A stretch of 43,935 nt of DNA from Candidatus Gastranaerophilales bacterium (GTDB lineage: Bacteria > Cyanobacteriota > Vampirovibrionia > Gastranaerophilales > Gastranaerophilaceae), in assembly GCA_947589425.1 (NCBI GenBank), contig CANQAV010000015.1, positions 1-43,935 of the forward strand, read 5' to 3'. The number at the start of each line of letters is the position of its first letter. Position 1 is the first letter of the stretch. The notes beneath the pieces are model-generated. The model ran no database searches, was not told the DNA's origin, and saw only the letters and a program-made list of their open reading frames with translations. A program made the position numbers and the translations under genes. Below are positions 13,515-43,935 of this stretch, piece after piece.

Positions 13515-14061
13515 AAAAGTCATGCGTAAGCCGAGGTGAAGCCGTAAAGAAAATGGCAATGCGTCGAGCATTGCCATTTTTAGGCGTAACCGTACGATTG
13601 CGACGTAGGATGTTGAGCGTTTGAGCAAGAGCGAAGCCTTGCGAAATTTAGCGAAACACCCACAGGAGCAAACCCGAGCAGAGTGAGTCCTAGTTCGCAG
13701 GGCGAACTTGACGAACGACGGCGAGGGCAAAAGAGTGCGAAGCCCGTGACGGCAGACTGTTGAAGTCTGGCGGACAGGGCGCAGACATTTCTATGGCGAC
13801 GTGGAAATCTTTGATTTCCTCAGGAGCCATGCGTAAGCCGATGCGATAATCGGCAAGCGGTCAGCTTGACGATTAAGCATAACGATGCCGCCGTAGGATA
13901 ATCGAGCAATGCGAAGCTACTTAGCGAAGCCTTGCGAGATACCCACAGGCGGAATGCGTAAGCCGAGGTGAAGCAAACGGCTTGCGTTGAGCAAGACGAT
14001 TGCGAAACCGTACGACGGCGACGTTTCAAATTCTTGCCCGAAGGGCGAATTTGTCAGGAGC
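13515..14061 (+). repeat. Mosaic of GC-rich hairpin repeats
   Basis: This stretch carries no gene. It holds related modules: atgcgtaagccgaggtgaag at 13522 and 13954 (truncated near 13829), a taggat(a/g)-type word followed by gcgaag words, and acccacagg at two sites. Hairpins include a 12-bp stem at 13550-13580, GCAGACT/AGTCTG near 13752-13769, and two inside the same GGCGACGT...TCAGGAGC frame (13795-13827 and 14017-14061) with unrelated stem sequences. The element at 13675-13750 matches the window-end repeats. Its base composition is far more GC-rich than the genes around it. Confidence 0.88.
13675..13750 (+). repeat. Copy of the cccgagc..gtgag hairpin element
   Basis: Starts acccgagcagagtgag, contains stem AGTTCGC (13692-13698) and GCGAACT (13702-13708) with loop AGG, then the tail gagggcaaaagagtgcgaag and cccgtgac. 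It is the same element as the minus-strand copies at 1-466 and the plus-strand copy at 43859. Confidence 0.9.
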
Positions 14062-14099: not shown

Positions 14100-14490
14100 T
14101 GGCAGTAGTCAGACCCTGAACACCTCGGCTTCGCCTACGGATACAGGCTCACAAGGCTCGTACCTCGCCTGTTCGCTTTGTAAAATTCAGGGTGACAGGG
14201 TTAAGTTAAATGTGTAAATTCCTGCACTTCACTACCCCATGTCATGCTGAACTGACTAGAAAATAGCGTGCATCGTTATTTTCTGTCCTCTGTGAGCGTT
14301 TCAGCATCTGACCAAGTGAAGTAACTGACATTTGAGTAAATGGAAGGGATGTAGAATTCTCCACCCCTAAGACCCTGAAACGAGTTCAGGGTGACAGGGT
14401 AAGAGGTGATGTGATTAATGCATACTTCAGGGCGACAAGGCTCGTACCTCGCCTGTTCGCTTTGTAAAATTCAGGATGACAGGGTAGAGT
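14100..14490 (+). repeat. Second repeat family: ccctgaa/ttcaggg words and a 51-bp direct repeat
   Basis: A 51-bp sequence at 14151-14201 recurs at 14435-14485 with one difference that I can see (cagggtgac against caggatgac). Around it are several short inverted words, such as ccctgaa...ttcaggg near 14373-14392 and tgtcatgctgaact near 14251. These look like a dispersed palindromic family distinct from the GC-rich modules on the left. No open frame here is credible as a gene. Confidence 0.8.
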
Positions 14491-14503: not shown

Positions 14504-14585
14504 GTGCACTTAGTGAAATATTACTGCGTAAGATTGTCTGAGCGTAAGCGAGTTATCTGAAGCAGTAATATTGAACTTAGTGCAC
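14504..14585. repeat. Long imperfect inverted repeat (about 24-bp arms)
   Basis: The arm at 14504-14527 (beginning gtgcact, ending aatattactgc) pairs with 14562-14585 (beginning gcagtaatatt, ending agtgcac) with about four mismatches. The interior, with tctgagcgtaagcgag, can form a further short stem. The 82-bp unit could be a small non-autonomous element or a large RNA hairpin. Confidence 0.7.
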
Positions 14586-14630
14586 TACTGGTAACCCACA
14601 CAAAACCAAGCCGAGGTTTCTTTCTTTTTG

Positions 14631-14687
14631 CTTCATTTTTCTTTCTTTGCGTTATGGCGTTTGAATGACAAAGAAAGAAAAATGAAG
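14631..14687. repeat. Perfect 19-bp inverted repeat
   Basis: cttcatttttctttctttg at 14631-14649 is the exact reverse complement of 14669-14687, with a 19-nt loop. Pairing can extend imperfectly outward into flanking T- and A-rich runs. It lies directly upstream of the broken HAD gene and lacks a normal terminator T-tract on the plus strand. Confidence 0.85.
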
Positions 14688-14718
14688 AAGTAAAAAAAGA
14701 ATAAAAGTTAATTTGTAA

Positions 14719-43230: not shown

Positions 43231-43857
43231 ATGGCGAAAAAAGAAACAGAGCAAAATGCTCAAAACTTAGAAGAAACACAAGAAGAAAGTATCTACATAA
43301 GCAAAGAGCAGACTCATAACATTGAAAAAGCTCCAAAGAAAAGATGGTATGTAGTTCATACTTATTCAGGCTATGAAAACAAGGTTAAAGTTAATCTTGA
43401 AAAACGTATTGAATATATGAACATGGGTGAAAAAATCTTCAGAATTGAAGTTCCCCAAAAAACAATAACACAAGTCCGTTCGGGCAAAAAAACCAAAAAA
43501 GAGGAAAAAATATTTCCCGGATATGTTTTGGTTGAAATGATTATGGATGATGATTCATGGTATGTTGTAAGACATACGGCAGGTGTTACAAAATTTGTCG
43601 GAACTGCCAAAAAACCAATCCCCGCAAAGGATTCGGAAATCAAAAAAATCATCCACAGAGGCGCTCAAACAACCGCAAAAATTGAACTTGACGTTAAAGT
43701 CGGCGACAAAGTGCGTATTGTTTCAGGGCCTTTTGCAGAATTTATCGGCGATATCACGGAAGTTTATCCTGATAAATCTAAACTAAGAGCTATGGTTTCA
43801 ATCTTCGGACGTGAAACCCCCGTTGAATTGGAATACAAGCAAATCCAAAAAGTGTAA
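43231..43857 (+). CDS. nusG: Transcription termination/antitermination factor NusG
   Basis: NusG binds RNA polymerase and couples it to Rho or the ribosome. It has 208 residues. A charged N-terminal extension of about 37 residues precedes the NGN domain (KRWYVVHTYSGYENKVKVNL...IFPGYVLVEM) and the C-terminal KOW domain (VGDKVRIVSGPFAEFIGDI). The ATG follows GGGTAGTGAC. The repeat element begins 1-2 nt after its TAA, so the usual rplK does not directly follow here. Confidence 0.97.
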   Translation: MAKKETEQNAQNLEETQEESIYISKEQTHNIEKAPKKRWYVVHTYSGYENKVKVNLEKRIEYMNMGEKIFRIEVPQKTITQVRSGKKTKKEEKIFPGYVLVEMIMDDDSWYVVRHTAGVTKFVGTAKKPIPAKDSEIKKIIHRGAQTTAKIELDVKVGDKVRIVSGPFAEFIGDITEVYPDKSKLRAMVSIFGRETPVELEYKQIQKV

Positions 43858-43858
43858 A

Positions 43859-43935
43859 CCCGAGCCAAGTGAGCTTAGATTGCGGGGCAATCTTAGCGAA
43901 CGCAGGCGAGGGCACAAGAGTGCGAAGCCCGTGAC
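43859..43935 (+). repeat. Copy of the cccgagc..gtgag hairpin element, cut by the window end
   Basis: Begins acccgagccaagtgag right after the nusG stop. The stem AGATTGC (43877-43883) and GCAATCT (43887-43893) with loop GGG replaces the AGTTCGC/GCGAACT stem of the other copies: both changed pairs are compensated. The tail gcgaacgcaggcgagggcac then agagtgcgaagcccgtgac matches the copies at 13675 and at the left end. Confidence 0.9.

Follow-up and report, generated by a model that had tools for sequence, protein, structure and literature searches.

Hairpins in a shared frame in a Gastranaerophilales genome as parts of a probably mobile family of hairpin-built DNA repeats

A preliminary description of 43,935 nucleotides of Candidatus Gastranaerophilales DNA (the whole of this stretch, contig CANQAV010000015.1, is referred to here as the window) reported two hairpins in which unrelated palindromic inserts are held between the same flanking words. 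Our analysis makes it likely that these hairpins are the 3′-terminal domains of two copies of a small, non-coding and probably mobile family of hairpin-built repeats, here termed E, a judgement that covers the mode of recognition, stem renewal and survival proposed below. As a family of gut-bacterial DNA repeats that are short and structured, E is apparently undescribed. No Rfam family matches it (at E-values ≤1 the window returned only miRNA models and similar low-scoring matches, lying over the neighbouring long palindromes), the plasmid and GenBank phage collections gave no match, and no description of E or of repeats of the Gastranaerophilales was found in the literature searched.

Both hairpins lie exactly where they had been placed (Table 1). 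The strict frame, GGCGACGT and TCAGGAGC separated by 5–35 nucleotides, is found exactly twice in the window, where shuffled sequence predicts 0.01 occurrences, and 11 times in the genome to which the window belongs. It is present in 21 of 28 genomes of the genus, and reversing the pattern as a control gave no match in the genome or in the genus. A relaxed frame (GCGACGT...CAGGAGC) matches approximately 286 times, in 25 of 27 genus genomes, again with no control match; related species carry between 0 and 27 copies, and the window's own genome (99.8% complete) carries 18. Across the order, the relaxed frame is present in 20 of 40 sampled genera, with eight control matches and about ten non-palindromic matches that are probably due to chance, and the order contains at least one further family with the frame and palindromic inserts. 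Seven relatives showed no frame upstream of their orthologous PFOR gene, where synteny is lost.

The inserts differ in sequence and are nearly always palindromic. Perfect stems of at least 5 bp are present in 79 of 89 different inserts (89%, compared with 8% after shuffling), which comprise about 40 different arms, and are absent from all seven inserts of chance matches in other organisms or within open reading frames. Five frame matches outside the Gastranaerophilales, found in a scan of contigs, all contain non-palindromic inserts, as chance predicts. The proposal that the inserts are interchangeable and nearly always palindromic is therefore borne out; a rare frame, or inserts that are mostly not inverted repeats, had been named as observations that would speak against it, and neither was found. 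We assign a practically negligible probability to the hairpins being ordinary transcription terminators or chance palindromes: E does lie downstream of genes, but no U-tract follows the hairpin, a separate terminator often stands just before E, and the frame with its palindromic inserts occurs far more often than in shuffled sequence. As a sufficient explanation, terminators or chance are refuted.

The nature of the frame itself required revision. In the class to which the window hairpins belong, the two words pair together (G-C, C-G, G·A, A·G, C-G, a bulged A and G-C); the canonical pairs of this helix were predicted by RNAalifold from 22 elements and recovered by single-sequence RNA folding of both window hairpins, and DNA folding parameters gave only the upper stem. 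In sister modules that share GTAGGAT...CCCACA, the words outside pair in 15 of 17 matches and in four sequence versions (GCGAC/GGAGC seven times, CCGCC/GGCGG six times, TCGCC/GGCGA and CTGGC/GCCAG once each), and of the remaining two, one is a chance occurrence in unrelated sequence. Certain other subclasses contain an additional nested 2-bp stem, which varies in sequence while its pairing is retained (GC/GC, AC/GT, CT/AG, TT/AA). As the frame words pair and covary, the fixed flanks form a lower stem that is conserved and contains mismatches, and the insert forms the upper stem. The earlier picture of fixed flanks around swapped inserts thus stands for the identity of the flanks and the palindromic inserts, but not for flanks as unpaired borders, and the flanked hairpin is not a whole unit but only the last 30–45 nucleotides, the terminal hairpin, of a larger repeat.

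These observations also bear on the cassette system that had been suggested, taken here as integron-like, with the frame words as the borders of site-specific recombination and the hairpins as the exchanged units. Consistent with this suggestion, differing hairpins occupy one frame at a single site (P12 of RNase P RNA, described below) and a hairpin with its 3′ frame is found behind another 5′ frame (L058, L068). However, the frame is one covarying, base-paired stem within a 90–130 nucleotide repeat, series of single-pair compensatory changes exist, no recombinase such as an integron integrase recurs among the 98 proteins encoded next to E, and the units between hairpins are non-coding spacers, not the gene cassettes of attC-type systems. 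We consider a cassette system very improbable, and as a system bounded by the frame words it is not supported.

E is a repeat of approximately 90–130 nucleotides in which a core hairpin is followed by a 3′-terminal hairpin that holds the frame in its lower part and the insert in its upper part. The core has conserved loops, a GTTGA-type pentaloop and a single G·A or G·G mismatch, and is flanked by GTGTGNGAAGC...GAAACCGTACCA; the conserved lower part of the terminal hairpin is GCGAC-GT / C-A-GGAGC, with a tandem G·A mismatch and a bulged A. Genomes hold many copies of E in arrays, in which E alternates with spacer modules, termed X, that are themselves hairpins, with outer stems CCC/GGG, CCT/AGG or CCTTT/AAAGG as read from their sequences. 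The window contains four consecutive E units (13521–14061) and other array pieces at both contig ends.

Table 1. Hairpins, E units and array pieces located in the window.
Feature	Position	Strand	Description
First hairpin	13795–13827	+	GGCGACGT GGAAATC TTT GATTTCC TCAGGAGC; frame forms the lower stem (tandem G·A, bulged A), insert GGAAATC/GATTTCC the upper stem
Second hairpin	14017–14061	+	GGCGACGT TT CAAATTC TT GCCC GAA GGGC GAATTTG TCAGGAGC; frame as in the first hairpin; upper stem CAAATTC/GAATTTG with inner GCCC/GGGC
E unit 1	13521–13669	+	5′ mini-hairpin GCGTAAGCC, core hairpin, Y-type terminal hairpin GCGACGTAGGAT...ACCCACAGGAGC (13600–13669)
Spacer module X	13670–13734	+	CCCGAGC...AGTTCGC AGG GCGAACT...GCGAGGGCA; outer stem CCC/GGG
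E unit 2	13735–13827	+	Core hairpin GTGCGAAGCCC...GTTGA...GGGCG, then terminal hairpin (the first hairpin)
E unit 3	13829–13952	+	GCGTAAGCC, core hairpin, Y-type terminal hairpin CCGCCGTAGGAT...ACCCACAGGCGG (13888–13952) with a fully Watson-Crick frame helix
E unit 4	13954–14061	+	GCGTAAGCC, core hairpin with GTTGA loop, terminal hairpin (the second hairpin)
Further array, left end of contig	70–466	−	Two Y-type terminal hairpins (85–150, 278–343) with X and core pieces
Further array piece, right end of contig	43856–43935	+	X module

The contig starts (1–466) and stops (43856–43935) inside E/X arrays, so that these repeats probably break the assembly. Adjoining the E array, at 14186–14490, are several hairpin repeats (TTCAGGGTGACA / GTCATGCTGAA) that resemble CGTC/TGTC-tagged REPs (PMC3733652), and at 14504–14585 and 14617–14702 lie two long imperfect palindromes, with arms of 31 and 29 nucleotides, that recur elsewhere in the genome (locus L018).

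The E structure shows strong covariation. In an alignment of 22 elements, 95.5% of cells are paired and 11 of 15 pairs show two-sided changes, and the covariation score is 0.50, compared with 0.15 for shuffled alignments (reached in 0 of 500) and at most 0.10 with slid partners; three frame pairs are invariant because the sequences were chosen by the frame. To set this variation beside that of a structured RNA, RNase P RNA from the same genus (15 sequences) served as the comparison. The share of G·U among standard pairs in variable columns is 1.8% in E and 14.6% in RNase P RNA (Fisher p ~3 × 10−8). One-sided and two-sided changes stand at 1:60 in E and 34:55 in RNase P RNA (Fisher p ~2 × 10−8), and among non-Watson-Crick cells G·U accounts for 4 of 19 in E, which amounts to no preference, versus 56 of 68 in RNase P RNA. 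The upper stems, extracted with a single stem-finding rule, contain 520 Watson-Crick pairs, one G·T and no A·C. E therefore combines strong covariation with a lack of the G·U tolerance of structured RNA, and the concerted change of paired bases with almost no G·U steps points to pairing at the DNA level or to template switching. This comparison pools copies without a tree and is strong but not final.

Part of the stem variety is nevertheless a stepwise compensatory series (GGAAATC, GGGAATC, GCGAATC, GAAAATC and GGAAACC, each with its matching arm). The mechanism that makes palindromes, raised in the preliminary description, thus remains a live option on account of the arms changing together, although ordinary compensatory change explains some of the variety. 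Template-switch mutation has been described as both maker and keeper of hairpins in RNA genes (Monttinen and Loytynoja 2022, PMC8794818); it predicts one-step, two-sided stem changes without G·U intermediates, as seen in E, but it concerns RNA genes, whereas E is a multi-copy repeat.

The same data bear on whether E might instead act as an RNA motif with a regulatory or protein-binding function, under selection in the transcript, with stems that drift by compensatory mutation and internal loops that are conserved. Strong covariation agrees with such a motif, as does the sense orientation of E as an independent arm of RNase P RNA. Furthermore, in 50 of 71 cases E and the nearest upstream gene share a strand (p = 0.0008, from mechanically called open reading frames and some orthologous loci), downstream genes being unbiased; this upstream bias counts against a pure DNA reading and leaves room for a role at the RNA level. 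Set against a transcript-level motif are the near absence of G·U pairs and one-sided changes, the lack of G·U preference among E mismatches, the swings in copy number between related species, the neighbouring genes (98 proteins) without a common function, and the absence of an Rfam match. Taken together, we regard an RNA motif as unlikely, and favour a mobile repeat.

E follows housekeeping genes, lies where phage genes adjoin and is found within RNase P RNA, and several of these placements indicate that it is probably mobile. Of 24 species, 7 carry E in the P12 loop of RNase P RNA, with differing cores and terminal hairpins, and the rest, including the window's own genome, have a plain short loop, so that E is both inserted into an RNA gene and variably present at a fixed site. 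A comparison of one locus, as the preliminary description had recommended, thus yields differing inserts in a like frame, here across species. E lies in P12 in the sense orientation, as an independently folding arm, and its presence accounts for the length of the RNase P RNA (443–479 nucleotides) in seven Gastranaerophilales species (L162–L164, L160, L174–L176). In one genome (G021), E is flanked by two copies of the 5′ side of P12.

Host sequence is duplicated around other copies as well. A 58-bp stretch of the GroEL end, with its terminator, lies on both sides of E at L055; a tRNA is duplicated around E at several loci (tRNA-Leu at L045, tRNA-Arg at L051 and L070, tRNA-Pro at L142), as it is at L054, where the tRNA-Arg runs off the contig; and the 3′ end of tmRNA is duplicated at L143, with further duplications at other loci. 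The direct repeats that flank E range from approximately 11 to 58 bp with no fixed length, and within arrays unequal recombination can mimic target duplication. At L051, L054, L070 and L045, an AT-rich segment of approximately 21–35 bp separates E from the duplicated 5′ end of the tRNA and may replace the promoter. In other species, the GroEL 3′-end module, including the last codons, adjoins E at unrelated loci, namely downstream of a gene for a KH/S1 protein (L140) and, as a variant, of one for a TPR protein (L068); judged from these sequences, it is as if E had taken its flank with it.

E also occurs at gene junctions on four IMG/VR phage contigs (L179–L182). On L180, which carries E at 1302–1406 and 1838–1907, the 5′ mini-hairpin GCGTGAGCC holds the TGA stop codon of the upstream tail gene, the AGGAG of CAGGAGC lies 6 nucleotides upstream of the next ATG, in the Shine-Dalgarno position, and the reading frame of a DNA-invertase gene runs through another copy at its end. 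The features of small palindromic interspersed mobile repeats in the broad sense, namely dispersed copies, presence or absence at given sites and insertion into genes, are therefore all found in E (P12, phage open reading frames, 0–27 copies). What we count against mobility is that no transposition was observed and that no enzyme was found.

The search for a mobilising enzyme, which covered Y1_Tnp and reverse transcriptase in 27 genomes and the 98 proteins encoded next to E, gave no candidate. Y1_Tnp (PF01797) is present in one of the 27 genus genomes and absent from the window's own, and reverse transcriptases are present in 11 of the 27, with no RVT_1 match in the window's own. There was no transposase among the 25 commonest families of the neighbouring proteins, and no recurrent recombinase among all 98. 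Two reverse transcriptases lie approximately 0.9 kb from an E. By inspection, the reverse transcriptase loci of six genus species (L134–L139) include accessory and target-like open reading frames and are probably diversity-generating retroelements.

E could in principle be a SINE-like retroelement, in which target-primed reverse transcription of its RNA would produce the inserted copies and leave long target duplications that vary in size. The fixed 3′ end (CAGGAGC) and structured body, the sense orientation relative to upstream transcripts and the length range of the flanking duplications would suit such a route, but a nearly complete genome holds 18 copies without an RVT_1 match, the copy number of E in the genus does not track reverse transcriptase presence, and the reverse transcriptases near E have the neighbours of diversity-generating retroelements. 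We therefore hold a SINE-like origin to be highly doubtful.

Of the known repeats, the REP and BIME elements, which are GTAG- or CGTC-tagged (Di Nocera et al. 2013, PMC3733652), resemble E in being extragenic hairpins with an unpaired or mismatched fixed flank, in their mosaic arrays, mostly 3′ of genes, and in having several stem families per genome. The terminal hairpin (28–46 nucleotides, 1–27 copies per genome in 25 of 27) also agrees with a multi-copy extragenic palindrome of 20–40 bp, yet it belongs to a longer repeat, and E differs from REP/BIME in its length (90–130 bp, two hairpins), in frame words that pair together, and in lacking both the GTAG/CGTC tag and a RAYT. On the E strand, the 5′ frame GCGACGT pairs with CAGGAGC, and CGTC is found solely on the other strand, 3′ of the hairpin. 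An REP-type element moved by an IS200/IS605-like Y1 (RAYT) transposase would match the mismatched hairpin, fixed flanking words and extragenic arrays of E, but this candidate is weakened by the missing tag at the REP position and by the absence of Y1_Tnp from 26 of the 27 genomes. The flank duplications around E, which to our knowledge are not expected for Y1 transposition, argue in the same direction, and we consider a RAYT-driven origin improbable.

The Rickettsia palindromic elements (RPE) are likewise small palindromic repeats tolerated in genes, as E is in phage open reading frames, where it is in frame, and in an RNA gene. RPE insert into RNA genes. No sequence relation of RPE to E was seen, and E is not of the CGTC type, to which RPE-6 and RPE-4 of R. 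conorii belong in the account in which RPE are described (PMC3733652). Like the MITEs (RUP, NEMIS, ERIC, BOX and similar), some of which are modular, E is small, non-coding and non-autonomous, but it lacks both their terminal inverted repeats of 15–30 bp (E ends in GCGNRAGCC or GTGTG on one side and CAGGAGC on the other) and their short target duplication of fixed length. Within the same phylum, the cyanobacterial STRR repeats likewise occur as inserts in RNase P RNA, in a variable helix; these are short tandem units of a few bases, whereas E is a two-hairpin element. E stands beside REP/BIME, RPE and MITEs in kind, without a tested defining feature of each (tag and Y1 transposase, or terminal inverted repeats and fixed duplication).

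For the probably mobile repeat that we favour, we propose that folded E, probably as single-stranded DNA, is recognised by a trans-acting factor through its conserved mismatches and loops; the stems would then need only to pair, and any sequence would be allowed in them. Stems would be renewed stepwise by compensatory change and also in one step, by template switching within a palindrome or by copies recombining with one another, and one-step renewal would keep them as perfect Watson-Crick palindromes. Copies would persist where they are harmless: after stop codons and terminators, within peripheral RNA loops, and between phage genes, to which they may contribute a stop codon and a ribosome-binding site. 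A more radical form of this proposal, which we think unlikely, is that E is a mobile hairpin recognised solely through its mismatches and loops (tandem G·A, bulged A, pentaloop). All stem sequences would then be free, each stem being rewritten as a perfect palindrome by a single event at the DNA level, and the element would insert beside or into structured-RNA genes, leaving target duplications that are long and variable, by a chemistry that differs from the known Y1, DDE and reverse-transcriptase routes.

E is a likely reason for assembly breaks in these uncultured gut bacteria. It enters RNase P RNA, abuts tRNA and tmRNA genes, and brings its own stop codon and ribosome-binding site to phage gene junctions. 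With hundreds of copies in related genomes, E is a natural system for how palindromes arise and persist, and if its stems are rewritten in single template-switch events, long-read genomes from the same species should show such events directly.
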